From Knoellia flava TL1 (GTDB lineage Bacteria; Actinomycetota; Actinomycetes; Actinomycetales; Dermatophilaceae): a stretch of DNA of 64,000 bases. The notes under the pieces were generated by a model, which did no database searches, was not told the DNA's origin, and saw nothing but the letters and a program-made list of their open reading frames with translations. A program made the translations under genes and the position numbers. How positions within the stretch are numbered: the stretch's first letter is position 1; each line of letters starts with the position of its first letter. The stretch lies in NCBI RefSeq assembly GCF_000768675.1, contig NZ_AVPI01000022.1, positions 1-64,000 on the forward strand. The letters run 5' to 3'. Below are positions 9,360-64,000 of the stretch, piece by piece.

Positions 9360-9374
9360 CCACGTGCGTGTGGG

Positions 9375-9749
9375 TCAGCTCTTGACGGCGAGCACCGGGC
9401 AGGGCGCGTCGAGCAGGATGCGCTGGGCGTTGGAGCCGAGGATGAGCTTGCCGACGGGGGTGCGCCGACGGAGCCCGATGACGATGAGGTCGGCGCCGAT
9501 CTCCTCGGCGACGGCGATGAGGTCCTCGGCGGGCTCGTTGCCCCGGATGAGCTGACGGACCTTGACCCCCACGCCCTTGCCCTTGAGCTCGTCACCGAGC
9601 CGGTCCAGCTCCTCGGAGTCGTCGCCCGCACCGTCGCGTCCGGAGTTGATGACGACGAGGTCGGTCTTGCGCAGGAGTGCTTCCTCGCCGGCGCGGGCCA
9701 GGGCTGCCGCGCCTTCCTTGGTCGGGATGTATCCCACGACGATGGCCAC
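9375..9749 (-). CDS. Universal stress protein (UspA family)
   Basis: A 124-residue single-domain UspA protein. It opens MAIVVGYIPTKEGAAAL, has the core IAVAEEIGADLIVIGLRRR, and a nucleotide-loop-like segment, G-x7-GKLILGSNAQRILLDAPCPVLAVKS, resembling the ATP-binding G-2x-G-9x-G(S/T) pattern but not matching it exactly. It is transcribed as a single gene with its own terminator. The particular stress signal cannot be read from sequence. Confidence 0.93.
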   Translation of the reverse strand: MAIVVGYIPTKEGAAALARAGEEALLRKTDLVVINSGRDGAGDDSEELDRLGDELKGKGVGVKVRQLIRGNEPAEDLIAVAEEIGADLIVIGLRRRTPVGKLILGSNAQRILLDAPCPVLAVKS

Positions 9750-9870
9750 GAGTGTCTCCTTCGGTCAGGTGATCAGCCGGACGGCTCTTGGCTGGACGCT
9801 ACCGGAGAATGTGAGCGAGGACACGGAGGCCGGACGACCGGTGTGGGTGCGCCGCGACCGGCGCGACCGC

Positions 9871-11004
9871 TCAGTCGTCGACGCTCGCGAACGCCTCCCG
9901 GATGATGGCGCCGACCTGCTCGATCTCAATGAGGAAGCCGTCGTGGCCGAAGCGCGACCCGATGCGTCGCAGGGTCGTCCCCGGGCGCAACGCGGCGATC
10001 TCGTCGGAGAGCCGCTCCGGATAGAGACGGTCGGTGTCCACGCCGGCGACGACGAGGCGGCCCTCGAAGGCGGCGAGCGCCGCGGCGACTCCCCCACGCC
10101 CGCGCCCCACGTCGTGGCTGTTCATGGCCTCGCTGAGCACGACGTAGGAGTTGGCGTCGAAGCGGCGACCGAGCTTGCCTGCGTGGTGGTCGAGGTAGGA
10201 CTCGACCGCGAAGCGCCCACCCCGGTCGAGCGGTTCCTCGCCCGGCTGCGCATCACGCCCGAACCGCTCGGCGAGCTCGCCCTCGTGCCGGTAGGTGACG
10301 TGCGCGATGCGCCGCGCGATGCCGAGCCCGTCGCTCGGGGTGACACCGTGCTCGTAGTAGTCGCCGTCGTGGAAGGCCGGGTCGCTGCGGATCGCGAGCA
10401 GCTGAGGCTGGCACCACGCGATCTGGTCGGCCGTCGCGTATGCCGTCGACGCGAGCACGACGCACGTCGCCACCCGCTCCGGGTGGGTCGTCGCCCACTC
10501 GAGGGCCCGCATGCCGCCCATCGAGCCACCGAGCACGCCGGCCCACCGGTCGATGCCGAGGTGGTCGGAGAGCCGCGCCTCGACGGCGACCTGGTCGCGG
10601 ATCGTCACGGATGGGAAGCGGCCGCCCCACGCACGGCCGTCGGGCGCGTCGCTCGACGGGCCGGTCGTCCCCTGGCACCCGCCGAGGACGTTGCTCGCGA
10701 CGACGAAGAACCGGTCGGTGTCCAACGGTCGCCCGGGTCCGACGAGCCCGTCCCACCAGCCGGGCGTCGGGTGTCCCGAGCCGGGCGGTCCCTCGACGTG
10801 GGAGTCGCCGGTGAGGGCGTGCTCGACGAGGACGGCGTTGTCGCGAGCGGCGTTGAGTGTCCCCCACGTCTCGTAGGCGACGGTGACCTCGGGCAGGAAG
10901 CCCCCACGCTCGAGCTCGAGGGGGCCGACGTCGACGAACCGTCGGTCACCCGGGTCGTCGCCGGGACGCCAGTAGGACGTCGTCGGGAGGTCGGTGATCG
11001 TCAT
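9871..11004 (-). CDS. metX: Homoserine O-acetyltransferase MetX
   Basis: A 377-residue alpha/beta hydrolase-fold enzyme transferring acetyl from acetyl-CoA to L-homoserine, the first committed step of direct-sulfhydrylation methionine synthesis. Visible features are the nucleophile elbow LGGSMGGMRALEW, the oxyanion-region HALTGDSH, and the catalytic Asp in VDTDRLYP and His in FGHDGFLIE. A SAM-IV riboswitch lies just upstream, and its partner metY with a matching riboswitch is at 27.5-28.8 kb. Confidence 0.96.
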   Translation of the reverse strand: MTITDLPTTSYWRPGDDPGDRRFVDVGPLELERGGFLPEVTVAYETWGTLNAARDNAVLVEHALTGDSHVEGPPGSGHPTPGWWDGLVGPGRPLDTDRFFVVASNVLGGCQGTTGPSSDAPDGRAWGGRFPSVTIRDQVAVEARLSDHLGIDRWAGVLGGSMGGMRALEWATTHPERVATCVVLASTAYATADQIAWCQPQLLAIRSDPAFHDGDYYEHGVTPSDGLGIARRIAHVTYRHEGELAERFGRDAQPGEEPLDRGGRFAVESYLDHHAGKLGRRFDANSYVVLSEAMNSHDVGRGRGGVAAALAAFEGRLVVAGVDTDRLYPERLSDEIAALRPGTTLRRIGSRFGHDGFLIEIEQVGAIIREAFASVDD

Positions 11005-46580: not shown

Positions 46581-46817
46581 GTGAGCCGCCGCAACTGGGC
46601 CTTCGACATCAGCCTCGCCCTGGTGGTCGGCGTCCTCGGCCAGCTCGAGGCGTGGCTGGGTATCGGGGAGACCCACCGTCAGGGGCCGCTCTGGGCGCAG
46701 GCCCTCCTGTATGCCGTGACGTCCCTCCTGCTCGTGCCTCGCCGTGTGCGCCCCTTGGCCGTGCTGGCGGGGATGGTCGGCGTCTCGCTGGTCGAGTTCA
46801 TCGCCGTGGGGTCGGTG
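46581..46817 (+). pseudogene. N-terminal fragment of a sensor histidine kinase
   Basis: From GTG 46581 the frame reads VSRRNWAFDISLALVVGVLGQLE, then helices up to GMVGVSLVEFIAVG, matching the membrane N-terminus of actinobacterial two-component kinases. The family sequence ends near 46815, where an IS3-family remnant in the opposite direction begins; the open frame stops at 46835. No kinase core is present anywhere in the window, so downstream DNA has been lost or moved. A GTATGCCG octamer lies inside, marking it as old chromosome. Confidence 0.65.
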
Positions 46818-47320
46818 GCTTCGTCGTGCAGGTAGCGGTACCCGAACTCCGGGTCGTCGCGGTGGGCGTCGAACAGCGCGTTCGCCCGGTACGCCGCGGT
46901 CAGGTCGGCGCCGGTGACGGGCGCCTGCAGCCACCGGTAATACGGCGCCCTCGCGATCTTCAGCACCCGACACGTCACCGTCACGGGGATCCCGTTGGCG
47001 GCCAGCTCGCGGACGAGCGGGTACATCATTTTCCCGGCAGGTGCGCCTGCGACAGCTACGCGGCCCGCCCGCCGCAGGACCTCGACCTCCTGCTCCAGCA
47101 GCCGGTTGCGCCGCTTGAGCTCACACAGCTCGGCCAGCTCCTCACGATCGGCGCCCGGTTTGATCCCGGCGTCGCGGTCGGCCTGCGTCATCCAGTTCGT
47201 CAGACACGACTCGGAGATCCCGAAGTCCTTGGCAACCTGCTTCAGCGTGACACCGCCCTCACGCTGACGGGCTACTCGCACGACGTCGTCGCGGAACTCC
47301 TGCGGATAGGGATTAGGCAC
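46815..47320 (-). pseudogene. Truncated IS3-family transposase
   Basis: GTG 47320 (AAGGA upstream) starts an OrfA-like part: YPQEFRDDVVRVARQREGG, a helix-turn-helix KQVAKDFGISESCLTNWM and a leucine-zipper-like ELKRRNRLLEQEVEVLRR. It runs in the same frame into the start of an OrfB-like part (MMYPLVRELAANGIPVTVTCRVLKIAR, DDPEFGYRYLHDEA). The family sequence stops near 46815; the DDE core is missing. Its 5' side abuts the IS481 element. It is a dead remnant. Confidence 0.8.
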
Positions 47321-47365
47321 GGGGACATCCTTCCAGCGGCGCCTCACAACGCCACAGATCAGTTG

Positions 47366-48373
47366 TCACCTATCGGTGCAGCAGTCCCAGATGTACTGAC
47401 CCGACAGGTTGGTCAAGCGGGTGATGGGCGGCTTGTTCGCGCAGGCGGTGTAGGGTCGGTGGTGGTTGTACTCGTGGAGCCATGCTGGCAGGGCGTCGCG
47501 TCGTTGAGCCTCCGAGGTGTAGCAGCGGGCATAGCCCCACCCGTCGGCCAGGGTGCGGTGGAAGCGTTCGACCTTGCCGTTGGTCTGAGGACGGCGCGGC
47601 CGAGTGCGTGAGTGCTTGAGGTCGAGCTCTGCGCAGACATCCCTCCACAGGTGGGAGACGTACGGCGAGCCGTTGTCGGAAAGGACCCTGCGGATGGTGA
47701 TGCCGCGGGCGGTGAACCACGCAACGGCGCGGCGCAGAACCGCGGTGGCGGTGGTAGCGGTCTCGTTGTCGTGGATCTCGGCGTACGCGACGCGGGAGTG
47801 GTCATCGATGGCGGTGTGCACGAACGCGTGACCCATCTTCGGGTTGTAGTGCTTGTTCTTCGGCTTGCCCGGGGTGGCTGCTCGGTTCTTGCCACCCTGG
47901 GTTCGGCCCACGAAGCGCCACCCGCCACCGTCGGGAATGTTGCCGAACTTCTTGACGTCGACGTGCAGCAGGTCGCCGGGGTGGTCGTGCTCGTAGCGGC
48001 GGACCGGTTCACCGGTGGCACGGTCGACGTGCGCGAGCCGGCTCAGCCGGCACCGCGTCAGGACCCGGTGAACGGTCGAAGGTGCGACCCCGACGTGCGC
48101 GGCGAGCTGGACCGGCCCCAACCGTTTGCGTAGCCGCAGCGACACGATCCGCTTCGTCGTCGCCGCACAGGTCTTGGCCGGCATCGCGTGCGGACGGCTC
48201 GAGCGGTCGCTCATCGGCTCACCGGCCGCGTACCGATCAGCCCAGCGCTTCACCGTCGGCCAAGAGCACTGGAACCGGGCCGCGACCTCACTGATCGGCA
48301 CCCCTTGGTCGACGACGAGCTGGGCGACCTTGAGGCGGTGACGAACCGTCAAAGCGGCATTAGCGTGGGACAT
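47366..48373 (-). CDS. IS481-family transposase
   Basis: 335 residues from ATG 48373 (AGGAGG 5 bases upstream). An N-terminal HTH (QLVVDQGVPISEVAARFQCSWPTVKRWADRY) and a DDE/rve core: first Asp in LLHVDVKKFGNIP, second in SDNGSPY after HTAIDDHSRVAY, Glu in PQTNGKVERFHRTLADGW. All catalytic residues are present. The stop codon (47366-47368) lies about 25 bases beyond the left terminal repeat, so the last residues (IWDCCTDR) come from flanking DNA. Confidence 0.9.
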   Translation of the reverse strand: MSHANAALTVRHRLKVAQLVVDQGVPISEVAARFQCSWPTVKRWADRYAAGEPMSDRSSRPHAMPAKTCAATTKRIVSLRLRKRLGPVQLAAHVGVAPSTVHRVLTRCRLSRLAHVDRATGEPVRRYEHDHPGDLLHVDVKKFGNIPDGGGWRFVGRTQGGKNRAATPGKPKNKHYNPKMGHAFVHTAIDDHSRVAYAEIHDNETATTATAVLRRAVAWFTARGITIRRVLSDNGSPYVSHLWRDVCAELDLKHSRTRPRRPQTNGKVERFHRTLADGWGYARCYTSEAQRRDALPAWLHEYNHHRPYTACANKPPITRLTNLSGQYIWDCCTDR

Positions 48374-48495
48374 GAGGGCCTCCTGTGCGTGGCAGTGGTG
48401 ACTTGGCAGTTCCACTCCACCGCGGGAGGCCCTTCCCGCGCCACTGATCAGATCAGCGGATCACAATCACTCAACCAACGTCCCGGGTCAGTACA
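47392..48495 (-). mobile_element. IS481-family insertion sequence, apparently complete
   Basis: Bounded by imperfect terminal inverted repeats: TGTACTGACCCGACAGGTTGGT at the left and, reading inward on the other strand, TGTACTGACCCGGGACGTTGGT at the right; the first 12 bases are identical. The unit is 1,104 bp. The flanks (CCCAGA left, GCTAGA right) show no clear target duplication. It abuts the IS3-type remnant on the left. Confidence 0.82.
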
Positions 48496-48709
48496 GCTAG
48501 ACGCAGCCAGCACCACATTTTCGTTGGCTCCAATTAGGCCGTCAGGGCAGAGCCGAAGCCCGACGATCTCGCCTTTATGCTTTAAGCCCACGAATGGGCA
48601 TAGATAGACTGATGGCTTGATCCGCGCCTGGTTGTGCGTCAACGCAGATGCCTCAGCCACATCCCAGGCTAGACATCGCCTCGGAGCCCCAGAGCCCTAT
48701 CCCAAGGCA
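48496..48709. other. Gap between IS481 and the DUF262 gene
   Basis: About 210 bases, lower in GC than the chromosome, with no supported gene. It marks the left flank of the defence-like block. Confidence 0.4.
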
Positions 48710-49759
48710 TCACGCATGCGCATTAAGATACCGATCGAGGACTTCAAGCCGAAACTCAAGCGCATAGCCATCGGTCATCCGTTGGGCCAAACTATCGAAT
48801 TCCAGATAGTCCTTCATAGTCGGCGACAACGACTCCTCGCGCTCGAACGACTCCAACGATCTAACGATGTTGAATTGCAATAGCGCATGCCGCTGAGGAA
48901 TCGGCTGACCATGCCGCAATCTCCGGTCAAATGCGAGAAAGTACACCGAAATCATGCCCACGTTCGCGAGCAGCCTGTCGTTGTCCTCGAAAACAGGCGC
49001 CATGACGTCTAGAGCCGACGCAACACGCGTCTGCACGCCAGACATCTCGGAGGCCGCACTTTTGTTGTCGTCCCAGAACTCGTCCAATTGCCGCTTCTTG
49101 GCGTCTACAGGCCTTCCAGCCTCGGCCCACAACATAAACTTAAGCGCAAGGTCAAAATGACGGTATCTCGTGTTGTCGAACGGCACCTTGTCCGTAAAGA
49201 ACGGGTGCGTGACCAATTCCCGCACGATGGGCCGAAGGACGCCCCCTCGCCCATTTCTCTTCTCAGCCGCATTCAAAGGGACAGCTTCATTCAAGCGGCT
49301 GAACATTTCTTCGATGAGCTCGATATCGTCCGTTCGGATAACACACACATCCAGGTTGATCGACGTCAGGAAGGCGGCGATCAGGTCATCGGACTGCTCG
49401 AGCTCATTGAACGTCTTACCAGCCGCTCCTGCCGCGCCATCTTCGAGAAGCGTGAAATCGTCCGCCAAAGCGAACTCGCCGTCCAGAAAGCCCCAGATGG
49501 CTTCGAGACGCTGGCGACCGTCGATTAGAGAGAACCGAACCCGGCGTCCGTCCACCTCGATCGGGGTAGCGTGCTCGTGCAAGTAGATTTTGGGAATATC
49601 GAAGCCGTTCAACAGGCTATCGATCAAGAGGCGCTTCTTCTCGACCGACCACACGGCTCCTTGGCGCTGATAGGGAGGATCGAGCTGGATCTGTTCTCGC
49701 ATACGGTGCAGATATGCAACGTTGCTATTCCGCATCACCGAGAGTGTAAACGCGCTCAT
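48710..49759 (-). CDS. DUF262 domain-containing protein
   Basis: 349 residues of the ParB-like DUF262 (GmrSD N-terminal) type. VAYLHRMREQIQLDPPYQRQGAVW at the start and FSLIDGRQRLEAIWGF (DGRQR, the nucleotide-binding motif) are diagnostic, and EEMFSRLNEAVPLNAAEKRN follows. There is no DUF1524/HNH nuclease domain, so it is not a full GmrSD enzyme. It overlaps the FRG gene by 4 bases (ATGA). DUF262 proteins are common in phage-defence loci; the role here is inferred. Confidence 0.88.
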   Translation of the reverse strand: MSAFTLSVMRNSNVAYLHRMREQIQLDPPYQRQGAVWSVEKKRLLIDSLLNGFDIPKIYLHEHATPIEVDGRRVRFSLIDGRQRLEAIWGFLDGEFALADDFTLLEDGAAGAAGKTFNELEQSDDLIAAFLTSINLDVCVIRTDDIELIEEMFSRLNEAVPLNAAEKRNGRGGVLRPIVRELVTHPFFTDKVPFDNTRYRHFDLALKFMLWAEAGRPVDAKKRQLDEFWDDNKSAASEMSGVQTRVASALDVMAPVFEDNDRLLANVGMISVYFLAFDRRLRHGQPIPQRHALLQFNIVRSLESFEREESLSPTMKDYLEFDSLAQRMTDGYALEFRLEVLDRYLNAHA

Positions 49760-50496
49760 TTGCGAAACGTCTCCTTGATATGCTCGGCCAGGTGGGCCAA
49801 GTCCGGGTATACCGAACTCGCCGTGATGTTGAGGTCAGCCAATTCAGCCAATATTCCAGCCTTGGCCGCGGACGGTACTACCCAACTTGTTACAGCCTTG
49901 TCCCTCGCCAAATCCTCACCCGCCTGACAAATGGTGAATGTTCCTACTTGAGCCGACACCCGGTCAAAGTATCGCATGGAGGTTACAGCTAAGGGGCCAT
50001 TCCTAGGGCCGGGAGGCGCCTCAGGTAGGTACGCGTCAAGGTGGTTATCGTGCCCCAGAACGAGGAGGCTAGGCCCGGCCGGATAATTGGTGGTATTTAG
50101 GGTTTCGGGCACAAGTTCAAAGAGGCGGCCATCTGCGGCGCCACCGGATGAGGTCTCGCAGGCGAAGAAGAGCCCGACGAGCGGATGTTCGCTCCAGTCG
50201 AGCAAGCGCGTGGGTAATCCAAAGTGCTGGGCCAGCGCTAACCACTCCCAACCACCGCTCGGGCGGACAGAAGTGCGGTTCACCGCGTCGCGCATGAACT
50301 GTTTGATCATGGTCACTTCTTCGGCCAGATGACCTGAGTTCCGCGCCACTCCCGGTAGCAGACCCCAATTGCTGTCGGCTTGGCCACGGAACCAGCGGTG
50401 GCCTGAAGCGTGCGAGCCTGCCAGGGCATCCAACAGTTCGCCCACCCCGCGAATCTCCGGGTCCGCCCCGCCGCCCTCACCCTCGATTTCCGTCAC
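49756..50496 (-). CDS. FRG domain-containing protein
   Basis: 246 residues. HRWFRGQADSNWGLLPGVAR (the Phe-Arg-Gly core) and LALAQHFGLPTRLLDWSEHPLVGLFFA define the FRG domain; its enzymatic function is not established. Translation is coupled to the downstream DUF262 gene, so the two probably form one module. It is divergent from the restriction endonuclease gene with a 244-base gap. Confidence 0.9.
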   Translation of the reverse strand: MTEIEGEGGGADPEIRGVGELLDALAGSHASGHRWFRGQADSNWGLLPGVARNSGHLAEEVTMIKQFMRDAVNRTSVRPSGGWEWLALAQHFGLPTRLLDWSEHPLVGLFFACETSSGGAADGRLFELVPETLNTTNYPAGPSLLVLGHDNHLDAYLPEAPPGPRNGPLAVTSMRYFDRVSAQVGTFTICQAGEDLARDKAVTSWVVPSAAKAGILAELADLNITASSVYPDLAHLAEHIKETFRK

Positions 50497-50740
50497 GGGC
50501 GCTACTCTGCCTGATGATCGAGGTGACCGCAGGCAAACGCGAGGAACCTCAACTTAGACGCGCCGCCTCTTCAGCTGTATCGATGGATCCGCGGAGCGGC
50601 AGCTCTTTAGCGTATAGGGTCTCTGGTTCGACGACCACGAGCCGTCAGCTCTCCACGGGTCCGAATGCCCCGGGCGATGTCGCATCTCGTACAACTGTCG
50701 TCTACTTCTACGGCGCTCTATTAGACATCCGGAGGTTTCG

Positions 50741-51658
50741 ATGGGCTCGACGATCTATGAGTGGTTTGGCTACGCAGCTACGGACGCGAGCCCAGAAGCG
50801 GCCCTGGCCGCTGAGGACAAACTCTGTCCGCACATCAAGGGGATGTGTGTAAAGAGGTCCAGCGGAGGAGTCTGTTCAATCGTTCCTACGGGTTCGCCAA
50901 CCCCCGTCATTATTTGTCCACAGCGGATGTATACAGACAGTCACAGGTTTCTGAAAGAGATCGCTCTTGAAGCTTTTTCAGACGCCGATCTAGAGTCGGG
51001 CCCGGATGGGTTGCCCCTGCTAACACCTTTTGCCCAAGTGCGGGAGAGAGCGCTAATGAGCGGACGTGCACAAGTCGGCGTGTTCGGACAAGGATTCGGG
51101 GGAGAACTTCGTTTGCCACCGGCCGGCAATGGCCTCGGCAGGTACTCCATTGACTTCGTACTCACCCACGTGCAGTCTGATGGTGAACTGGCCACCTTTG
51201 TGCCGGTTGAAGTTCAATCCATCGACATCTCGAACTCAAACACTCGTGGCGTAACAGCCTTGCAGCGAGATCGGACGATTGCGCCGACTAAGGCAGGTCT
51301 CAACTATGAGAATGTCAATAAAAGGATTCTTCCGCAGCTGATTGTCAAGGGGCTTATGCTGCAGGCAGAGGAACTTTGCCGGCAGGGCATCTATTTTGTC
51401 TCACCAGTGCCGGTCTATGAGCGAGTCTTGATGCGACTTGGCGGTAGCGAGCGACTCCGACGTATCCCACGTCAGCCAGGAAGCATCACATTCTGGCCCA
51501 TCGATTACGGCGCCGCGATCGTGCCGGGTCAGACCATTCCAATTCGGCGCACAGTCGGACGGACGATCTCCACTAGCGACATGTCGATCGCGTTCATTAC
51601 TCCAGAGAACCTTCCGCCTGCAGGTGCGTATGAAGACAGAATTAGGCACCACCTCTGA
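50741..51658 (+). CDS. NotI-family type II restriction endonuclease
   Basis: 305 residues. A cysteine cluster CPHIKGMCVKRSSGGVCSI...IICPQRM matches the iron-binding fold of NotI. The PD-(D/E)XK-like site is seen in GRYSIDFVLTHV (Asp) and FVPVEVQSIDIS (Glu-x-Gln, as in NotI). ATG 50741 has GGAGG 6 bases upstream. It converges on an m5C methyltransferase gene with a 3-base gap. The recognition sequence cannot be deduced; GCGGCCGC would be the NotI specificity. Confidence 0.82.
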   Translation: MGSTIYEWFGYAATDASPEAALAAEDKLCPHIKGMCVKRSSGGVCSIVPTGSPTPVIICPQRMYTDSHRFLKEIALEAFSDADLESGPDGLPLLTPFAQVRERALMSGRAQVGVFGQGFGGELRLPPAGNGLGRYSIDFVLTHVQSDGELATFVPVEVQSIDISNSNTRGVTALQRDRTIAPTKAGLNYENVNKRILPQLIVKGLMLQAEELCRQGIYFVSPVPVYERVLMRLGGSERLRRIPRQPGSITFWPIDYGAAIVPGQTIPIRRTVGRTISTSDMSIAFITPENLPPAGAYEDRIRHHL

Positions 51659-51661
51659 TAG

Positions 51662-52864
51662 CTAGGCTGACGCCCGATCTGCGAGATCGAGCCGCGCAGC
51701 GATGCTTGCTCCTATTGCCTGGGCCAGAAGGGGAGGCACTGCGTTGCCAACTTGACGATATTGGTCCGCTCGATTGCCCAGGAATAGGTAACTGTCCCGA
51801 AAAGATTGGAGCCGCGCCGCCTCACGGACGGTAAACGCGCGATCCTGTGCGTAGTGGTAGTACGCACCCCAGTGAGGGTCACACTTAGTAAGAATTGTGC
51901 TAGCCAGTCCGTCCGGATGCACTCGCCCGTAGCGTTTTGTGTGATCCGATGTCCGTGCGCGCTGCATGCCTGATGGAAGTAGTTCCCTTGGGATATTTGT
52001 CCAGTTGCCGCCTGGTGGGATGTGGCGCAACCGCTCCAATTGCAGGGCCGAAAGCCGACTGGCCACGTGATTGCGAATTGCAGAGGAGCCGACCCGAAGG
52101 CGGGCTTGATACTCGTTCTGGGCCTCGGTCCGATATTGCTGCCCTTCGGTCGGCTCTTCACCCGTTCCTGGGAATGGCAAGTCGTCCAAACTCTCCCTAA
52201 CGGTGGTGTGCCGACGCAAATTTTGGTCGGTTGGAATGCGCACCAAGCGCCGCCCACCGAGTCGGGATGTAAAATTCACGCGTGCCGGTGCCGCATGCCT
52301 CGGAGAAGGGAAAGCACTAGTTGGATCTACTCCATCACGGAATCCTAGGACGATCGTCCGCCATCGCGTCTGCGGCACGCCGAAATGGGGGGCGTAGAGT
52401 ATTTGAACATCCGAGGCATAACCTAGTTGTTCAAGCGCTTCCAAAATTGCCTCGAGTGTTGCCCCACCCGAGAAGCTAACCAAGCCGGGCACGTTTTCAA
52501 TCAGCACGGCTAACGGTTGAAACTCGTCAACAAAGCGTAGGTAATCCCGGAAGAGATGATTGCGCTTGTCAGACTCACGACGTGCCGGCGCGTTAATGCT
52601 AAATCCTTGGCAGGGGGGTCCGCCGGCCAAAAGCGTAAGATCTCCCTGCTTCAACCCTAAACCGATTCGCACGGCCCGTGCGTCAACGTTTCGGATATCG
52701 GTTGACTCGACCACGGTGTCCGGATGATTAAAGGCGTATGTCGATGCAAACGTCGTTTCAAACTCATTGGCGTAGAGAGCTTTGAAGCCTGCGTTCTGCA
52801 GCCCATCAGACAGCCCGCCGGCTCCAGCGAATAAGTCAATAAGCGTCCGCGCCGACACGTGCAC
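51662..52864 (-). CDS. DNA (cytosine-5-)-methyltransferase
   Basis: 400 residues with the m5C motifs in order: I LIDLFAGAGGLSDGL, IV AGGPPCQGFSINAPAR with the catalytic Cys, VI IENVPGLVSF, VIII VPQTRWRTIVLGF, a target-recognition region (about 200-320), IX FTVREAARLQSF and X YRQVGNAVPPLLAQ. It is the likely protecting partner of the convergent NotI-like nuclease. Lower GC than neighbouring nrdJ suggests horizontal origin. Start GTG 52864 is followed by another GTG two codons on. Confidence 0.95.
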   Translation of the reverse strand: MHVSARTLIDLFAGAGGLSDGLQNAGFKALYANEFETTFASTYAFNHPDTVVESTDIRNVDARAVRIGLGLKQGDLTLLAGGPPCQGFSINAPARRESDKRNHLFRDYLRFVDEFQPLAVLIENVPGLVSFSGGATLEAILEALEQLGYASDVQILYAPHFGVPQTRWRTIVLGFRDGVDPTSAFPSPRHAAPARVNFTSRLGGRRLVRIPTDQNLRRHTTVRESLDDLPFPGTGEEPTEGQQYRTEAQNEYQARLRVGSSAIRNHVASRLSALQLERLRHIPPGGNWTNIPRELLPSGMQRARTSDHTKRYGRVHPDGLASTILTKCDPHWGAYYHYAQDRAFTVREAARLQSFRDSYLFLGNRADQYRQVGNAVPPLLAQAIGASIAARLDLADRASA

Positions 52865-56043: not shown

Positions 56044-56571
56044 TCAGTCCGGCGGGGAGACCGAGGCACCTTCTGGAGCGGACGGCCCCGCCACGCGCTC
56101 CTCCCGCTGGTCCCCTCCGAAAGCGTCGCGCTCGACGCGCAGCAGCGTGATCGCCTGCTCGAAGTCCTCGAGGCTGTCGAACGCCTGGTAGACCGAGGCG
56201 AACCTCAGGTAGGCGACCTCGTCGAGGCTCCGCAGCGGCTCGAGGACGGCGAGGCCGACCTCGTGGGCGTCGACCTCGGCCTGCCCGAGCCCGCGGATCG
56301 TCTCCTCGACCTGGTGGGCGAGGAGGGCAAGCTGGTCCTCGGTGACCGGACGGCCCTGACAGGCCTTGCGGACGCCGACGAGCACCTTCGGGCGGCTGAA
56401 CGGCTCGGTGGCCCCCGACCGCTTGACGACGGACAGCGCCGCCGTCTCGACGGTCGTGAACCGCTTGCCGCACTCGGGGCACTGACGCCGCCGGCGGATG
56501 CTCGCGCCGTCGTCGGTGGCCCGGGAGTCCATGACGCGGGAGTCGGTGTGGCGGCAGAAGGGACAGTGCAC
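56044..56571 (-). CDS. nrdR: Transcriptional repressor NrdR
   Basis: 175 residues, slightly longer than the usual 150-160 because of an Ala/Ser/Pro tail. The N-terminal zinc ribbon is [16 protein letters not shown]...[11 protein letters not shown], then the ATP-cone ([29 protein letters not shown]). It senses dATP/ATP and represses reductase genes. GTG 56571 has GAGAGGAG 8 bases upstream. Gene order nrdR-nrdJ is that of Streptomyces. Confidence 0.95.
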
Positions 56572-56653
56572 GGACCGGCTCCTCTCAGGGGCGCAATGGG
56601 GACGGTTCTGGGGACGGGTTGGGGACAACGTGTGGGTAACCCGCCCGCCCCTG

Positions 56654-56701
56654 TGAACCATATGTGGATGAACTACATCGGTGTAACCACTAGATGTTGT
56701 G
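56654..56701 (-). promoter_or_regulatory. Pair of NrdR boxes
   Basis: Two 16-base sites, TGAACCATATGTGGAT (56654-56669) and ACCACTAGATGTTGTG (56686-56701), match the acaCwAtATaTwGtgt pattern to differing degrees; the second is better. Their centres are 32 bases apart, three helical turns, as in known NrdR operators. They lie 83-130 bases upstream of nrdR, which supports autoregulation. Confidence 0.65.
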
Positions 56702-56829
56702 CCAAGTATGCGCCTCGTGTGACCCGCGCCGCAAGCCCTTCCGCACATCTGCGCGTGTCGCCCCGCAACCACGCCACCCGTCCCCGCGTGTCGTCGCGCA
56801 GACCCGGCGTGTCGCGTCCTGCCATCGCC

Positions 56830-56872
56830 GCGACCGGATGGCGACCGGCTCGCGACCGGGCAACGCCACGGT
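56830..56872 (+). promoter_or_regulatory. SARP-type promoter with three heptamers, upstream of the first secreted-protein gene
   Basis: GCGACCG occurs at 56830-56836, 56841-56847 and 56852-56858: exactly 11-base period, 4-base spacers. An 8-base gap separates the last copy from CACGGT (56867-56872), a CANNNT -10-like hexamer. This is the layout of SARP-bound promoters. The gene start is 75 bases downstream of the -10. An equivalent site is at 62580-62622. Confidence 0.75.
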
Positions 56873-56946
56873 GTGGTCGGGAGCCAGCCGGCTCCCATCC
56901 AGGACCTCGAACCGAACTCGCGGCCCGCCACCCCAAGGAGCATCCG

Positions 56947-57453
56947 ATGAACCGTCGTCGCAGTCTGGCCGCCGCCGCCTCCGCAGCCGCCCTCGTCGCC
57001 CTCACCGCACCGACCGCCACGGCAGGCGCCACCCGCACCGTCGAGACGCGGGACTTCACCATCCCGGTGCACGAGCAGACCAGCGAGGCGTGCGGCTTCC
57101 CCGTGAGCCTGCACGTCTGGGGCTGGTTCAACGTCGTGACCCACACGGACGGCGCCGGCAACGTGACCAAGGAGATTCGCAACTACCTCTTCCGTGGGGA
57201 GCTCACCGCCAACGGAGTGACGGTGCAGGGCGTCACCCACGGACCGGATGTCACGACCTACCACGACGACGGGACCGCGACGGCCATGGTGCTCGGCGTC
57301 GTCAACCGTCGCGTCCCCGGCGCCGGGACGGTCACCCTCGCGTCCGGACTCACCATCAACAACATCGACCGTGAGGGCGAGGAGGTCGTGATCTTCCACA
57401 GCGGCCCGGAGGAGGAGAGCATCGCCGAGGTCTGCTCCGCGTTCACGGCGTGA
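56947..57453 (+). CDS. Secreted protein of unknown function
   Basis: 168 residues. A signal peptide [18 protein letters not shown]...TATAGA has twin Arg, a hydrophobic core and an Ala-rich cleavage region near 27. The mature part is beta-rich ([56 protein letters not shown]) with two cysteines, at SEACGF and EVCSAF, that could form a disulfide. The family was not recognised. AAGGAG lies 7 bases before ATG 56947. It is preceded by the SARP-type promoter and followed by the SARP regulator. Confidence 0.8.
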
Positions 57454-57554
57454 CGGTCCCCTCCCGCGCTCACCCGTCCGCCAACGCGGCCCGGTCCGCC
57501 GCAGCCCCGCCGTCGCGGCGCACTCCCTGAACCGTCAAACCGAGGACGCGCGCC

Positions 57555-60500
57555 ATGACCCGCCCCTATCGTCAGCACGTGGACTACAGCGTCCTCGGCC
57601 CGCTGCGTGTGAGCAACGGGCACGGACCCATCGAGATCCGTGGCGTCAAGGAACGCACGCTCCTGGCCCACCTCATCTCCGCGGGCGGACGGCTCGTCCC
57701 CAGCAGCGACCTCATCGACTCGCTGTGGCAGGACGACCCGCCGGCCAGCGCGGGCAAGTCGCTGCAGACCTTCGTCCTGAGGCTGCGCAACGCCCTCGAG
57801 CCGGACCGGCAGGGTGCCCCTCAGCTGCTGCTGACCGAGGGCCCCGGCTACCGGCTCGCCTCCGATCCGGTCGCCGTGGACGCCGAGCGGTTCACCCGGC
57901 TCGTCGCCGTCGGACGCCGGGCGCTGGAGGAGGGCCGGCCCGACAGCGCGAGCACGACGCTCGGCGAGGCGCTCTCGATGTGGCGCGGGCCGGCATACGC
58001 GGGGTTCGACCACGCGCGCTTCGCCCAGGCCGAAGCCCGTCGCCTCGAGGAGCTCCGTCTGGCCGCGACCGAGGACCGGCTCGGCGCCGAGGTCGCGCTC
58101 GGGCGCCTCGCGACTGCGATCCCGGAGCTGGAGCGCCTCGTCGGTGTGCACCCGCTGCGCGAGCGCCTGTGGGAGATGCTCATGCTCGCGCTCTACCGGG
58201 ACGGCCGGCAGGGTGAAGCCCTCACGGCCTACGAACGCGCCCGCACGGTGCTGTCCGACGAGCTCGGCGTGGACCCCGGCGCAGGGCTTCGCGCCCTGCA
58301 TGGCCAGGTGCTCGCACACGACCCCGCCCTGCGCCCCGCGAGCCGACGACTGCCACTTCCCCCTGAGCTGGCCGCACCACCCCCGCGGCTGGTCGGTCGC
58401 GACACCGAGCTCGACCTGCTGCGCCGTGCGTGGCACCGGGCGCTCGCGTCGACCCCGAAGACGGTCCTCGTGCGCGGCCCTGTCGGCGCCGGGGCCAGCG
58501 CCCTCGCCGCGTCATTGGCCGGCGAGGTCGCCCGGAGCGGCGCGGAGGTGCGCTACGAGGCGGCCGACTCTCCCGTCGACGAGGCGCCTGCCAACTCGGG
58601 CCGTCCGCTCCTTCTCGTGGCGGACCACGTCGACCCGTCGATCACCGCGACCCTGGTCCTTCGTCTCGACAGCCCCCATTCCGGGTCCTCGGCTGCCGAC
58701 GAGGTCATCGACCTGAGTCCGCTCGCCGAGACGGAGGTCAGCGAGATCCTCGCCGACTACCTTCCCCACGACGCCGTCGACGCGGCCCTGGACTCCGTCC
58801 TCGCCCGGTCGCAGGGGTGGCCCGGCGCCGTCCACGAGGCCGCGACCCTCCGGGCCCGGGCCCACGCCACCCAGCGCGTCGGTGTCGCGGCCCGACGCAC
58901 CGACGCGAGCAGCACCTCCCTCGCCAGTGCGCGCGCCGACCTCGTCGACAGCGTCGTCGACCTGCGTGAGACGACTCTGCCCGCGGGCAGCGCCGACCCG
59001 ACGCAGTGCCCGTGGAAGGGCCTCGCCGCCTATGACGTCGAGGACGCGCGGTGGTATGCCGGCCGCGAACGTCTCGTGGCCGAGCTCGTCGCGCGCGTGG
59101 CCTCCTCCCGCGCGCTGGCTCTCGTCGGGGCGTCCGGGTCCGGCAAGTCGTCGGCGCTGCGTGCCGGCCTCGTGGCGGCCCTGGCCTCCGACGTCCTGCC
59201 CGGGAGCGCCGCCTGGTCCGTCATCGTCATGCGCCCGGGGCCGCACCCCCTGCGCGAGCTGGCCCGCGCTGCCCTGGGCCGCGGCCACAGCGACGTCGGG
59301 GACCTGCTCTCCCAGCTCATCACCGCGGACGGCGAGGCCCGCACCCGCACGGTCCTCGTCGTCGACCAGCTCGAGGAGGCGTGGACGCTGTGCGAGGACG
59401 ACCAGGAGCGCTCACAGTTCCTCGACACCCTCGCGGAGCTCGCGACCGACCCACGGTCCGACGGCACTGTCGTCGTGGCCCTGCGCGCCGACCGCACTGG
59501 CGAGCTCGCCGAGCACGCCGCGCTGGCCGCGGTCGTCCGCGATGCCACGGTGCTCGTGGGCGCGCCGACCCCTGCCGAGGTGCGTCGCACCATCGACCGG
59601 CCGGCCTCGGCAGCCGGGCTGCACCTCGACGAGGGCCTCGCGGACACGATCGTCTCCGACGCCGGCAGCGAGCCGGGGCTCCTGCCACTGCTGTCGACCT
59701 CGTTGACCCAGCTGTGGGAGCAGCGGGAGGGAGCGAGCCTCACCTACGCCGCCTACGTGCGGACCGGGGGGCTGAGCGGCGCCATCGCCACCCTCGCCGA
59801 GGAGTGCTTCGACGGACTCACGCCGGAGCAGCAGCTGAGCGCCCGCTCGCTCCTCCTCCGCCTCACCGGGCCCGGCGACGGAGAGGCGGTGACCCGACGG
59901 CGCGTGGCTCTCGTGGAGCTGGATGCGCTGTCGGACAGCGGAATCCGTCCCGCACTCGACGAGCTGGCGGCCGCGCGGTTGCTCTCCGTCACGGATGGAC
60001 ACGTCGAGGTCGCGCACGAGGCGCTCTTCCGCGAGTGGCCACGCCTGCGGTCGTGGCTGGCCGAGGACGCAGCCGGTCGCGCCGTCCAGCGACGGCTGGC
60101 CGTGGCGGCGAGCGAGTGGGACGCCGAGGGACGCGAGCCGTCCGGCCTGTGGTCGGGGACGCGCCTCGCCTCCGGGCTCGAGGTGGCACATCACCGCCCC
60201 GAGGAGCTGACGAGCGTCGAGCACGCCTTCCTCGACGCTGGCCGGGAGGCCGGGGACGCCGCCCGGCGTGACGCCGAGGCCCGGGCCGCGTCGACCGCAC
60301 GCCAGAACCGACGGCTGCGCTGGCTCCTCGGCGGCATCGCCACGGTGCTGCTCGTCGCGCTGGTGGCGGGGCTGCTCGCCTGGCAGTCACGCCAGGACGC
60401 GGCTGCGAGCGCAGTGAGCGCCGACGCCCGGCGCCTCGCCGCGACAGCCCTCACCATGGACTATCCCGACACGGCGTTGCTCGCGGCGATCGAGGCGACG

Positions 60501-62555
60501 CGCCTCGAGTCGAGCCCGGAGACACAGGGTGCCCTCCTCACCCTGCTGGCGCGCCAGCCCTCCGTCGTCCACCGCGTCCGCACCCCGAACCGCTTCCTGC
60601 GCAACGTCGCGAGCCCCGACGGGCGCACCGTCTTCGTCAGCGAGAACGCCGGGCGGCTCTGGTCCGTCGACGCCGAGACCGGTGAGGTGAGATGGACCGT
60701 CGACACCCCCGGCGAGGGGCAGGCCGGCAACCTCAGCGTCACCCCGGACGGCACCGGCATCGTCGCCACCATCTATCGCGACCCCGTCCCCGTGCTGACC
60801 CGACTCTCGGCGACGGACGGCTCGGTGGTCTGGGAGCTGGCGTCCGACGACCTGCCGGCCGTGACCGGACTCGATGGCGAGATGCTCCACTGGGCCGGGT
60901 TCGACGGAGCCGGAAGGCTCCTCGTCCAGACCGACACCCGCCTGTATGCCGTCGACCCCACCTCCGGCCAACCCCTCTCTTCCCAGCCGTGGCCCGGCAG
61001 CACCGCGGCGATGGAGTCTCTCGTCGTCTGGCCGGACGGGCGCGCCAGTCGTGAGGTGGGCTTCGACCCCGAGGCCGGCAGCATCGTCGTCGACACGCGC
61101 AACCCCACGCGCGCTCCCGCACGGGTCGCCGGGTTGATCGCGGCCGTCTCTCCCGACGGGCGGCGGATGGCCGTCGCCAAGGGTGAACGGTTCGGCGGAA
61201 CGCTCCGCGTCGTGGACACGACGACGTTCGAGGACGTCGGAGCCCCGATCCCGCTCAGGGGGGAGGTCCGAGCGGGCGCGTTCAGTCCGGACGGAAGGCT
61301 GCTCGCCGTCACTGCAGACAACGACGTCGTCGTCTACGACGCCACGACCCTGCAACCGGTCCACACCCTCGAGGGCCACAACGGCACCGCGATGGCCGTG
61401 GCCTTCGCCGGCCGGGACCACGACCTGCTGTGGACCGCGTCACGGGACGGCACAGCCGTGGGCTTCGACCTGTCCGGGACGCGCACCATCGTCGCCGAGC
61501 AGACGATCGATGCCAAGGTCATGACGGGTCAGGGCCCGAGGGTGGGCGGCCGCACCGGCGTCGTCGTGCACTTCTTCGACGACGCCCCCAACACGGCCGA
61601 GCTCGTCGACCTGTCGAGCGGCGACGTCGTCGCCGAGCTCCCGTTGCCCGGGGCCGCCACGTGCGGGTGCCAGGTGACGACGGTCGCCATGACACCCGAC
61701 GGCCGCACGGCGATCGTCTCCGAGACGACCTTCACGTCGCCGGAGGACCCGGAACCGAAGAACGACACGGGCCGGCTGCGCCTTTGGGATGTCACCACAC
61801 GCACGCTCACGGGCACGGTCGACTTGCCCGAACCCGCGTTCTCGATCGCGCTGTCCGCCGACTCGCGCCGTGCGGTTGCCAACGGCATGCACGGCGTCAT
61901 GAGCATCGACCTCGCCGCCGGACGCGTCACCGGACACCTCACAAACCTCGACCCCGAGAAGATGTACGGCGACCAGATCCCGCAGATCGCCCTGTCGCCC
62001 GACGGGCGTCTGGCGGCCGTCGGGCGCGTCGGCATGCTCGCACTCGTCGACGTCGCGACGATGACGGAGGTGCGCCGGCTGGACGACCTCACGACCGAGG
62101 GACAGCCGGTCGGCGCCGTGACGTTCAGCGCCGACGGGCGGACGGTCGTGGCGGGCGACTTCGCCGGATGGATCCATTTCCTCGGCGTCGACGACCTGCG
62201 GCCGGTCGCACCGAAGCGGCTCATCGCCGCCGGGTTCGTCATCGGTGCCCGCATCAGTCCTGACGGCTCGGTCCTGGCGTCGCTCGGCACCGACGGGGAG
62301 CTGACGCTCTGGGACACGGATACGTGGCGGCCCTTCGGCAAGCCGGTCACCGACGACCAGGCGTGGGGCTTCATCCACTTCCCCGACGAGCAGCGCATCC
62401 AGGTGATGTACGACAACTCTCGGATGGTCCGGGTCGGCATCGACCGCGACCGGTGGGTCGAGGCTGCCTGTTCGGCAGCGAACCGCGACCTCACGCCGGA
62501 CGAGGTTGCCGTCGTGCTCCCGGGTCGCTCCGCCCCCTCGACCTGCCGAGGCTGA
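57555..62555 (+). CDS. SARP-STAND-WD40 regulator with membrane helix
   Basis: 1666 residues. Order: winged-helix OmpR-type DNA-binding domain (about 10-100; YSVLGPLRVSNGHGPIEIRG), BTAD (about 105-255; ERFTRLVAVGRRALEEGR, LMLALYRDGRQGEALTAYER), a first NTPase-like region (about 280-450) whose P-loop is GPVGAGAS with Ala in place of Lys, then an nSTAND1 NTPase (CPWKGLAAYDVEDARWYAGRE; Walker A GASGSGKSS at about 526; DQLEEAWTLC), a membrane helix (about 923-943) and WD40-like repeats to the end. Thus DNA-binding and NTPase parts face the cytoplasm and the propeller would lie outside. Similar to AfsR-like regulators; it probably controls the two flanking secreted-protein genes. Confidence 0.88.
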   Translation: MTRPYRQHVDYSVLGPLRVSNGHGPIEIRGVKERTLLAHLISAGGRLVPSSDLIDSLWQDDPPASAGKSLQTFVLRLRNALEPDRQGAPQLLLTEGPGYRLASDPVAVDAERFTRLVAVGRRALEEGRPDSASTTLGEALSMWRGPAYAGFDHARFAQAEARRLEELRLAATEDRLGAEVALGRLATAIPELERLVGVHPLRERLWEMLMLALYRDGRQGEALTAYERARTVLSDELGVDPGAGLRALHGQVLAHDPALRPASRRLPLPPELAAPPPRLVGRDTELDLLRRAWHRALASTPKTVLVRGPVGAGASALAASLAGEVARSGAEVRYEAADSPVDEAPANSGRPLLLVADHVDPSITATLVLRLDSPHSGSSAADEVIDLSPLAETEVSEILADYLPHDAVDAALDSVLARSQGWPGAVHEAATLRARAHATQRVGVAARRTDASSTSLASARADLVDSVVDLRETTLPAGSADPTQCPWKGLAAYDVEDARWYAGRERLVAELVARVASSRALALVGASGSGKSSALRAGLVAALASDVLPGSAAWSVIVMRPGPHPLRELARAALGRGHSDVGDLLSQLITADGEARTRTVLVVDQLEEAWTLCEDDQERSQFLDTLAELATDPRSDGTVVVALRADRTGELAEHAALAAVVRDATVLVGAPTPAEVRRTIDRPASAAGLHLDEGLADTIVSDAGSEPGLLPLLSTSLTQLWEQREGASLTYAAYVRTGGLSGAIATLAEECFDGLTPEQQLSARSLLLRLTGPGDGEAVTRRRVALVELDALSDSGIRPALDELAAARLLSVTDGHVEVAHEALFREWPRLRSWLAEDAAGRAVQRRLAVAASEWDAEGREPSGLWSGTRLASGLEVAHHRPEELTSVEHAFLDAGREAGDAARRDAEARAASTARQNRRLRWLLGGIATVLLVALVAGLLAWQSRQDAAASAVSADARRLAATALTMDYPDTALLAAIEATRLESSPETQGALLTLLARQPSVVHRVRTPNRFLRNVASPDGRTVFVSENAGRLWSVDAETGEVRWTVDTPGEGQAGNLSVTPDGTGIVATIYRDPVPVLTRLSATDGSVVWELASDDLPAVTGLDGEMLHWAGFDGAGRLLVQTDTRLYAVDPTSGQPLSSQPWPGSTAAMESLVVWPDGRASREVGFDPEAGSIVVDTRNPTRAPARVAGLIAAVSPDGRRMAVAKGERFGGTLRVVDTTTFEDVGAPIPLRGEVRAGAFSPDGRLLAVTADNDVVVYDATTLQPVHTLEGHNGTAMAVAFAGRDHDLLWTASRDGTAVGFDLSGTRTIVAEQTIDAKVMTGQGPRVGGRTGVVVHFFDDAPNTAELVDLSSGDVVAELPLPGAATCGCQVTTVAMTPDGRTAIVSETTFTSPEDPEPKNDTGRLRLWDVTTRTLTGTVDLPEPAFSIALSADSRRAVANGMHGVMSIDLAAGRVTGHLTNLDPEKMYGDQIPQIALSPDGRLAAVGRVGMLALVDVATMTEVRRLDDLTTEGQPVGAVTFSADGRTVVAGDFAGWIHFLGVDDLRPVAPKRLIAAGFVIGARISPDGSVLASLGTDGELTLWDTDTWRPFGKPVTDDQAWGFIHFPDEQRIQVMYDNSRMVRVGIDRDRWVEAACSAANRDLTPDEVAVVLPGRSAPSTCRG

Positions 62556-62579
62556 GCCGGCTCGGGCGACCACCTCACC

Positions 62580-62622
62580 GCGACCGGACGGCGACCGAGT
62601 CGCGACCGAGGCGGCACAGGCT
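62580..62622 (+). promoter_or_regulatory. SARP-type promoter upstream of the second secreted-protein gene
   Basis: GCGACCG at 62580-62586, 62591-62597 and 62602-62608, again an exact 11-base period, then 8 bases and CAGGCT (62617-62622), a CANNNT -10-like hexamer. Same layout and heptamer as 56830-56872. It begins 25 bases after the stop of the SARP gene; the target ATG is 51 bases downstream of the -10. Confidence 0.75.
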
Positions 62623-62672
62623 GTGGGAGCGGGCCGGGACCGGCCGGCATACCTGCTCCGGAAGGAACCCCG

Positions 62673-64000
62673 ATGCACTCTCGACGCACGGTCGTCGCCC
62701 TCGGTGCGACGACCGCACTCACCCTCACCATCGCCGCCGCAGTGACGACGGCCGGGTCGGCGCTCGGTGCCCCCACCACGTCGGGCTGCCGGCTCGTGGA
62801 GCTGCCCCCACCTCCCGGCGGCTTCGACGCGGGGGTCATGGACATCGAGGTCGTCGACGGCACGACGATCTACTACGGCAACTACCAGGTGGTCGAGGAC
62901 GGTGAGCAGACCCAGCGCGCCGTCATCTGGAGGGGGATCGACGGAGCGCCCGAACCGATCAACACGGGGCTCGGCAAGGCGGTCGACATCGCGTACGAGC
63001 TGACCTCCACCGGGCTCGTCAACGGCACCAGCGAGGACCTCGACGGCGGCAGCCCGACCCACTGGGTCATGGATCTCAGGACGATGGACGTCACCGTCGT
63101 GGACAGCTCGATGGGTGCGAAGGCGGACGCCACCGCACTGGTGCGGAGGGTCAACGACAGCGGAGCCCTCGTGGGCACGGACGTCCATGGCGTGGGCGGC
63201 TCCTTCAACCGCAACGGCAACAGCGCAGTCGGGTGGGCCTCGCCCGACGCCCGGCCTGTCCGGCTGGAGGCGACGGGGTCCTCGTCCCAGGCCGAGGGGA
63301 TCAACGCCCACGGCGATCGCGTCGGCATCATCGCCAAGTCCAAGCGCCCCGGCGTGCCGCACTGGACCGACTACGACCCGACCCTGTGGCACGCCGACGG
63401 ACGCGTCACGACGATGGACCGGGTCGGCATCGACGCCATCCCGTGGGAGGTCAAGGACGACGGCAGCGCCGGCGGCGAGGGCTTCTGGGGCTGGGATCCC
63501 TTCGCGGGACACATGGAGGCGGTCTACTGGCCGAGCGCCGACGACGCCGTCGGGCTCGGGGTGCTCGACGGCGGCGGCTACTCCCGCGTCTTCGGACTCG
63601 ACGAGGGAGGCTGGGCCGTGGGGTTCGCGGACCGGTTCGCAAGTGATCCCGAGGACCCGTTCGCGTGGCGGGGCGGGGCCTACACCCACTCGTTCCTCTA
63701 CGTCCACGGGCGGACGGCGCCGGGCCACCTGCGCATCCTCCCCTCGCTCCAGTCCGTCGCCCGGGGTGACGCCGACTGGCACGACTGGCACGGGTCGGCC
63801 GTCCACGCGGTCAACGCGCAGCTCGACCAGGCTGCGAGCGCCTCGGCGACAGGAGTCGACGAGAACGGCGTGGCGACCTACGGCGCGACGGTCTACCTGG
63901 GCGCCTCGCAGTGCGGCATCGAGGTCGCGACGACCCACGACCCGTGGGGACTCGGCGAGACGCTCGACGCGGCGCGGGCCACGTCCGCCGACGCCGAGTC
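62673..64000 (+). CDS. Secreted HAF-repeat-like protein, cut by the window end
   Basis: At least 442 residues; the end lies beyond the window. A signal peptide MHSRRTVVALGATTALTLTI... (cleavage near 32, ALGA) and a mature, beta-rich chain with repeated units such as VNDSGALVGTDVHG, INAHGDRVGIIAK, LDEGGWAVGFAD and VDENGVATYGATV, resembling HAF-type extracellular repeats (INxxGxxVG). GAAGGA lies 6 bases before ATG 62673. The promoter matches the SARP sites, so it is probably co-regulated with the gene at 56947. Confidence 0.75.
   Translation, partial: MHSRRTVVALGATTALTLTIAAAVTTAGSALGAPTTSGCRLVELPPPPGGFDAGVMDIEVVDGTTIYYGNYQVVEDGEQTQRAVIWRGIDGAPEPINTGLGKAVDIAYELTSTGLVNGTSEDLDGGSPTHWVMDLRTMDVTVVDSSMGAKADATALVRRVNDSGALVGTDVHGVGGSFNRNGNSAVGWASPDARPVRLEATGSSSQAEGINAHGDRVGIIAKSKRPGVPHWTDYDPTLWHADGRVTTMDRVGIDAIPWEVKDDGSAGGEGFWGWDPFAGHMEAVYWPSADDAVGLGVLDGGGYSRVFGLDEGGWAVGFADRFASDPEDPFAWRGGAYTHSFLYVHGRTAPGHLRILPSLQSVARGDADWHDWHGSAVHAVNAQLDQAASASATGVDENGVATYGATVYLGASQCGIEVATTHDPWGLGETLDAARATSADAE

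Follow-up and report, generated by a model that had tools for sequence, protein, structure and literature searches.

The first 64,000 nucleotides of contig NZ_AVPI01000022.1 of Knoellia flava TL1 (Dermatophilaceae), the stretch that we call the window, contain the gene of a large regulator of the SARP (Streptomyces antibiotic regulatory protein) family, with a gene for a seemingly exported protein on each side, gene A before it and gene B after it. We conclude that this locus probably encodes a membrane-spanning one-component activator of SARP type, which would activate its own expression together with a regulon of exported proteins. The conclusion is drawn from sequence comparisons, and starts from two operators that can be read in the DNA, one before gene A and one before gene B.

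Operator A (56829..56857, forward strand) is made of the heptamers CGCGACC, GGCGACC and CGCGACC, of type CGCRACC, repeated with a period of 11 base pairs (bp); operator B (62579..62607, forward strand) has the same three heptamers in the same order. A sequence-only reading of the window had described them as triplets of GCGACCG, at 56830-56858 and at 62580-62608, with a weak -10 hexamer exactly 8 bp behind each, CACGGT (56867..56872, forward strand) and CAGGCT (62617..62622, forward strand). Direct reading confirms both the letters and the distance: the full strings are GCGACCG GATG GCGACCG GCTC GCGACCG GGCAACGC CACGGT at 56830-56872, and GCGACCG GACG GCGACCG AGTC GCGACCG AGGCGGCA CAGGCT at 62580-62622. 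The conserved block is better given as CGCRACC, one base earlier, which places CACGGT 9 bp past the third heptamer; CAGGCT follows the same offset rule. The general -10 rule is [C/G]ANNNT, and the full operator reads CGCRACC three times, N9, [C/G]ANNNT. SARPs are described as binding direct repeats spaced by 11 or 22 bp, the 3' repeat lying 8 bp from the -10; the -10 of afsS is CACTGT, and region 4 of the sigma factor docks on two SARP protomers in place of a -35 (PMC10936776; papers are cited here and below for the parts of their text available to us). A promoter and terminator scan of 56500-64000 returned no prediction, which is expected, since the promoters proposed here have no -35.

Repeats of this kind could conceivably be due to chance or to simple tandem duplication: among the 16 exact matches of a scan over many species, discussed below, four are 11-bp tandem repeats with no SARP-like frame on the stretch, and such repeats evidently also arise without a SARP, a point against our reading. 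The spacers, however, differ between the repeat copies at both window sites. Allowing up to three mismatches, the window holds four matches to the triplet, two exact ones and two register-shifted copies of operator B, while shuffled windows hold 0.14 on average and none of 100 shuffles reaches four. Over the whole genome (3,561,699 bases, 94 contigs), the only exact GCGACCG triplets are the two of the window; 15 matches are found with at most three mismatches, against 4 for the reversed pattern used as a control, and the triplet combined with its -10, with at most two mismatches, yields 4 sites against 0. The genome-wide search that the sequence-only reading had proposed thus finds the triplet to be rare.

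When the heptamers alone are scored over 22 sequences (719,056 positions, both strands), ten sites agree with at least 20 of 21 positions: the two of the window, one each on contigs C17 and C34 of the same genome, two in Knoellia aerolata, two in Intrasporangium calvum, one in Phycicoccus flavus and one in family genome G015. All ten have [C/G]ANNNT at one shared offset. In a set of 16 operators, six of which were found with a search pattern that included the -10, the hexamer is at offset 9 every time, with a single match over the other 19 offsets combined. Over seven promoters, column identity is 92% in the heptamers, compared with 41% in the spacers, 38% upstream and 49% downstream. Given the shuffles, the conserved columns and the fixed offset across genomes, we reject an origin by chance or tandem repetition, to which we give next to no weight. 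As far as sequence comparison can tell, the CGCRACC triplet with its -10 is a real operator of SARP type.

The arrangement recurs at orthologous loci. In Knoellia aerolata DSM 18566 (G141), A and B are both present, each with a triplet ahead of it, and so is the regulator, in two pieces on separate contigs. In Intrasporangium calvum PheN6 (G063), the regulator is 49% identical overall, gene B is on the opposite strand and still has the triplet ahead of it, and the slot of A is taken by another small exported protein, which has a weaker triplet of its own. Counterparts of operator A precede the A-regulator operon in both species, and counterparts of operator B precede gene B in both and in Phycicoccus flavus. 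The triplet is therefore kept ahead of orthologues of the flanking genes, and this comparative evidence supports the earlier proposal that the regulator controls both of them. In our genome, gene A and the regulator gene are on the same strand, 101 bp apart, and the upstream operator most likely drives the regulator itself.

We define the clade of the regulator by a DNA-binding part at least 53% identical to its own. It has nine members, eight in the family and one in a Nocardioides species, the Phycicoccus flavus regulator being counted once since contigs C17 and C112 of that genome share its first 97 residues. Seven of the nine have sites. These seven loci come from five genera, and each has an operator ahead either of the regulator or of the exported gene that immediately precedes it; for P. 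flavus, the assignment goes through the contig overlap. In six of them, the next gene after the regulator, on the opposite strand in I. calvum, encodes an exported protein and has an operator of its own. Separately, genome G015 contains an eroded locus (L070 6135-8164) where regulator fragments and a truncated gene B accompany an intact operator.

The repeats might be read by another family that recognises 11-bp direct repeats, such as a response regulator of OmpR/PhoP type, with the SARP as a bystander; indeed, PhoP also recognises the repeats of afsS (PMC10972967). The distribution of the sites argues otherwise. Among 186 genomes of the family, 16 match the operator pattern, with 29 matches against 5 for a reversed control. 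Clade regulators occur in five: K. flava, K. aerolata, P. flavus, I. calvum and Ornithinimicrobium tianjinense. Each of the five carries two sites or more, and strict sites (at most one mismatch, -10 intact) are found in all five and in only 2 of the other 181, one being the eroded locus of G015. Fisher's test gives p = 1.2e-8 for strict sites and 2.5e-6 for all matches (5/5 against 11/181), in a comparison that reuses the three genomes that taught us the motif and ignores relatedness; without these three, the counts are 2/2 against 2/181, and p is about 4e-4 (by hand). Operators moreover adjoin the regulator gene itself, and accompany it in Nocardioides too, so that we consider a bystander role very improbable.

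With at most two mismatches and an intact -10, sites are found in 4 of the 181 genomes: G015, G020, G044 and G079. We left out G044 and G079, where the -10 is kept with two heptamer mismatches in a similar stretch of two genomes of one genus, and G020, where the -10 is kept with one mismatch and for which no explanation was reached. The matches of G045, G025, G016, G076, G069, G061 and G133 were left out because their -10 is imperfect; several of them are tandem repeats. A search at E 1e-50 finds no DNA-binding part in these ten genomes. The G020 site (L103 6018(+), G020:C33:14017) lies, with its intact -10, before an open frame of at least 900 amino acids. This genome has no clade regulator, but holds a more distant SARP whose recognition helix fits the pattern of the clade.

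That pattern, Kx[LV]QxxVxR[LV]R, is found in the recognition helix of all nine clade members (KSLQTFVLRLRNAL in our regulator); the SARPs beside the sites of Pseudonocardia, Salsipaludibacter and Actinomadura (contig C89) have it as well. Among 16 other SARPs from which the helix was extracted, two fit it, in G015 and G020. The base contacts of AfsR are T88 and R92 (PMC10936776), and both appear to be kept in KSLQTFVLRLRNAL, where AfsR positions are mapped by counting from the LW motif rather than by alignment to AfsR.

We scanned one genome per species, 84,980 species in all, with the exact pattern and obtained 16 stretches. In nine of them, the sequence retrieved includes a SARP-like frame: six come from four genomes already named, and three from new ones, namely Nocardioides sp. 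SYSU D00778, a Pseudonocardia metagenome-assembled genome and Salsipaludibacter albus. Besides the four tandem repeats, the others are one from Verrucomicrobia and two from a single Actinomadura. The Nocardioides regulator is full-length, with a DNA-binding part 56% identical to ours and an operator on each side. Its two targets, a 746-residue protein with a PKD domain and a protein of about 484 residues without Pfam family, both have signal-peptide-like starts, and a sequence search finds no likeness between them and A or B. With the hexamer taken as -12 to -7, both target ATGs fall exactly at +1 (hand count); the transcripts would thus be leaderless, which is independent support for the register.

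Other sites of the scan lie near more distant SARPs. In the Pseudonocardia genome (L148 6670(-)), an exact operator stands beside a distant SARP and before a gene that looks, by eye, like an alcohol dehydrogenase; in Salsipaludibacter albus (L149 6706(+)), an exact operator is directly behind a more distant SARP. Given these two sites, the CGCRACC code may extend beyond the membrane-spanning SARPs. Actinomadura sp. HBU206391 has five CGCAACC-triplet sites with CATNNT as -10 (L121, L124/L150, L151, L152 and L153), two exact and three with one or two mismatches: four of the five precede genes with signal-peptide-like starts, one of the products is a beta-lactamase-fold protein, and one of these four genes is divergent from a SARP gene. 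We read them as a sister regulon whose heptamer differs slightly.

The sequence-only reading had supposed a self-contained regulon with two targets, and neither term survives: two further sites of the genome lie in trans, on C34 and C17. The C34 operator (CGCGACC, CGCGACC, CTCGACC, with -10 GAGCCT) precedes a paralogue of gene A, encoding a 172-residue exported protein, which is related to the A-slot proteins of I. calvum (E 7e-17) and of the O. tianjinense C3 locus (E 3e-15), and more distantly akin to A itself (90.7% probability in a comparison of profiles of 4 and 3 sequences). The C17 operator, with CACGGT as -10, precedes a lipoprotein gene. A match on C8 was left out of the regulon: it agrees at 19 of 21 positions, has TGCACT instead of [C/G]ANNNT, and precedes the gene of a proline-rich, apparently non-exported protein. 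As far as seen, the regulon would be small and composed of exported proteins. All our calls of signal peptides and lipoproteins are readings by eye.

With five BTAD genes in the genome, another SARP could also act at these operators, alongside ours or for the most part in its place, and the regulon would then be a network of paralogues instead of a single circuit. One candidate is a second SARP-nSTAND1 regulator of the clade on contig C62 (L048, G000:C62, about 7800-10254), cut by the contig end, whose DNA-binding part is 59% identical to ours and whose recognition helix, KALQTYVLRLRNAL, is nearly identical to KSLQTFVLRLRNAL. For the lipoprotein gene, the candidate would be a SARP whose gene lies on C17 at a distance of 2.9 kb: the operator there has, 50 bp upstream of it, another triplet of different sequence, CGCCACC/CGCTACC/CGCTACC (L010 6605-6633(-)), and the lipoprotein is found in 1 of the 186 family genomes, our own. 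However, the operators are at the locus of the present regulator's type in 7 of 7 site-bearing loci, and none is found in the 7.8 kb upstream of the C62 gene; furthermore, the operators occur in K. aerolata, P. flavus and I. calvum, where there is no second clade member at 53% identity or more. We therefore hold it unlikely that another SARP shares these sites or is their principal user.

The regulator gene (57555..62555, forward strand) encodes 1666 amino acids, with coordinates and length as first given, and the order of its domains can be followed along the translation. The DNA-binding part (57648..58313, forward strand) comprises a winged helix of OmpR type, PF00486 (Trans_reg_C, residues 32-101, E 1.6e-9), and directly behind it PF03704 (BTAD, residues 108-253, E 4.1e-49). 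An N-terminal winged helix, an adjoining BTAD and promoters with 11-bp repeats 8 bp from the -10 place it, by sequence, among the SARPs. The solved structures closest to this part are chains of EmbR and AfsR, with 2fez (EmbR) at E 1.1e-39. Against the AfsR equivalog NF053617, the full-length model of a large SARP with NB-ARC and TPR, it scores 172 bits where the cut-off is 1430, the best stretch being residues 7-264. A degenerate AAA_16 domain follows (58386..58556, forward strand, residues 278-334), whose P-loop GPVGAGAS is without lysine: GPxGAGA[ST] is found in six of seven regulators, and the seventh, of O. tianjinense C3, has GPRGGGGT, likewise without lysine. The strongest domain is the nSTAND1 NTPase (nucleoside triphosphatase) domain, PF20703 (59010..60140, forward strand, residues 486-862, E 4e-112), with Walker A GASGSGKS and Walker B VLVVDQLEE, as a STAND protein should have; Walker A is kept as GASG[ST]GKS in seven of seven. 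Hydropathy then predicts a single transmembrane helix (60324..60380, forward strand, residues 924-942), preceded by RQNRRLR, and the remainder (60381..62552, forward strand) is the WD40, or propeller, half, predicted to be extracytoplasmic, with domain matches up to about residue 1594 and cysteines 1370/1372 and 1639/1664.

In the seven regulators whose membrane segment was seen, there is one strong hydrophobic stretch (mean hydropathy 2.3 to 3.2), always behind RQNRRLR. The simplest reading of this profile is that the N-terminus is inside and the propeller outside, and a single helix with a positive flank fits the earlier suggestion that the WD40 part may sense something outside the cell. Conversely, the regulator could be wholly cytoplasmic, the hydrophobic stretch being a buried helix and the propeller reading an internal ligand, as in STAND proteins of conflict and stress responses: nSTAND1 is its strongest domain, and for both WD40 repeats and STAND NTPases the role best known is that of a sensor inside the cell. 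The constancy of the hydrophobic stretch and its flank argues for a membrane helix, as do the cysteines of the WD40 half, whose final pair is kept in seven of seven regulators and whose CxC/CxxxC pair in five of seven, and the fact that the targets read as exported proteins. A wholly cytoplasmic regulator is thus, in our opinion, quite unlikely.

Gene A (56947..57453, forward strand) encodes 168 amino acids and gene B (62673..64000, forward strand, continuing to 64028 past the window) 451, both with signal-peptide-like N-termini and neither with a Pfam family at the curated cut-off, B having been searched without its last 9 residues. The model of the mature part of A, with a mean predicted local distance difference test (pLDDT) of 84, is a barrel-like sheet of antiparallel beta strands. 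Foldseek finds for it no match at E 0.001 or better in PDB or in BFVD, and VIA-align proposes porins, nitrobindin and VtrC with Z scores of 6 to 9. These are in or barely over the range that the tool itself rates as middling, and we claim no function from them. The model of B, with a mean pLDDT of 52, is unusable, and a profile search finds no solved relative at E 0.1. Gene B is found in 6 of the 186 family genomes, nearly full length in 4, and, in a search of 396 genomes across the phylum, in 1, our own.

Assembling these elements, the mechanism that we propose is the following. The cytoplasmic winged helix and BTAD would bind the three heptamers, and the bound regulator would recruit RNA polymerase, as AfsR does, to promoters with a weak [C/G]ANNNT and no recognisable -35. 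From the upstream operator, this would drive the operon of gene A and the regulator, so that the regulator would activate itself; from the downstream one, gene B; and at least two unlinked genes of exported proteins would belong to the same regulon. The intracellular STAND core is the likely switch, closed with ADP, open and oligomeric with ATP, and would be coupled through the one membrane helix to the outward-facing propeller. The sequence itself shows the operators, their register and conservation, and the order of the domains; we infer the binding by this regulator, the autoactivation, the topology, the switch and the outside signal.

One may go further, and suppose that A and B are ligands, co-receptors or decoys of the propeller, closing a feedback loop across the membrane, and that unrelated exported proteins have replaced the cargo, such as the PKD protein of Nocardioides, while regulator and operators were kept. 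We entertain a partnership between A and the propeller because a gene of type A, or of types A2/A3, is present in 6 of 6 family loci with operators at the regulator, though not in Nocardioides. As a whole, this extension is possible and somewhat doubtful.

Several observations weigh against the interpretation and should be kept together. Of the four phosphate- or base-contact positions mapped from AfsR onto the recognition helix, two differ, with Q for R87 and N for K95. The A-slot protein of I. calvum has no BLAST-detectable homology to A. Two clade regulators are without a nearby site, the one on C62 and one of O. tianjinense (C1:1009379), the latter judged by pattern search. In Nocardioides, the downstream operator is in its own right a perfect tandem repeat of 11 bp. 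Nor is the pattern general to nSTAND1-WD40 regulators, a generalization that we abandoned: at nine loci of distant homologues (L053-L061), in three of which a SARP DNA-binding part was seen, there is no site with at least 18 of 21 heptamer positions and no other 11-bp triplet, and the same holds for a SARP-STAND gene pair on C34 (L049) of our own genome. Finally, we know of no membrane helix in the solved relatives AfsR and EmbR.

The closest known system is AfsR/afsS of Streptomyces coelicolor, a large SARP that shares with ours the winged helix-turn-helix (wHTH) and BTAD, the 11-bp repeats, the weak CANNNT -10 and the poor -35 (PMC10936776). AfsR has two repeats, a tail of NOD and TPR domains and a role in the control of antibiotic synthesis, whereas the present regulator has three repeats, nSTAND1, a predicted membrane helix, WD40 and exported-protein targets. 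The pimM operator of PimR, a SARP-LAL, also consists of three heptamers with 4-bp spacers, but the heptamer is CGGCAAG, the target is a single gene of a biosynthetic cluster, the operator does not overlap the -35, and the available text mentions no membrane part (PMC5930380). EmbR of mycobacteria, the top solved match, shares the wHTH-BTAD fold. It is linked to cell-wall genes, and has an FHA domain and kinase input where ours has STAND and propeller. Membrane-bound wHTH one-component regulators of CadC/ToxR type, with partner proteins such as ToxS and VtrC, would resemble it in function: they have the wHTH inside, one membrane helix, a sensor outside and a small partner gene next door, a build that hydropathy and the positive flank suggest for our seven regulators. 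Unlike the present regulator, they have neither SARP/BTAD nor STAND core, and the structural likeness of A to VtrC (Foldseek E 0.23; Z 6.8) is unreliable. MalT is soluble, with a DNA-binding domain of LuxR type and a sensor different from that of our regulator. Its STAND core is a nucleotide-driven oligomerisation switch, as proposed here (PMC4381067, PMC10427625).

Upstream of the locus, on the opposite strand, are two genes that we take to be nrdR and nrdJ, and a cytosine methylase gene is also among the upstream neighbours; downstream, the contig ends 727 bp beyond the window. A SARP typically lies within a biosynthetic gene cluster that it controls; the neighbours available for comparison here are those just named. 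The stretch 46679-52864, next to nrdJ, may be a small defence island: besides transposase-like genes, it encodes a DruM-like cytosine methylase, a GmrSD_N (DUF262) protein and a protein with an FRG domain that is PADLOC candidate PDC-S15.

A 2024 review divides SARPs into small, medium, large and SARP-LAL classes, mainly activators of antibiotic clusters, and the word 'transmembrane' is absent from its available text (PMC10972967). A study of STAND conflict systems gave, in its available text, no match to SARP or BTAD (PMC7159879), and a systematic study of prokaryotic WD40 proteins was also checked (PMC5587647). Among the matches listed in our literature search, mostly outside subscription journals, none joins SARP or BTAD with WD40 or a membrane helix. 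The DNA mechanism is already known, and the membrane-spanning architecture and the regulon of exported proteins seem undescribed. They point to a branch of SARPs that would span the membrane and control exported proteins, with an operator sharp enough to find members of the regulon across genomes from sequence alone. The locus also offers, with a ready-made reporter, a testable case of a STAND NTPase whose signal would cross the membrane and reach RNA polymerase; if the feedback loop were real, it would be, as far as we know, the first case of an outside signal relayed directly to promoter DNA by a STAND NTPase.

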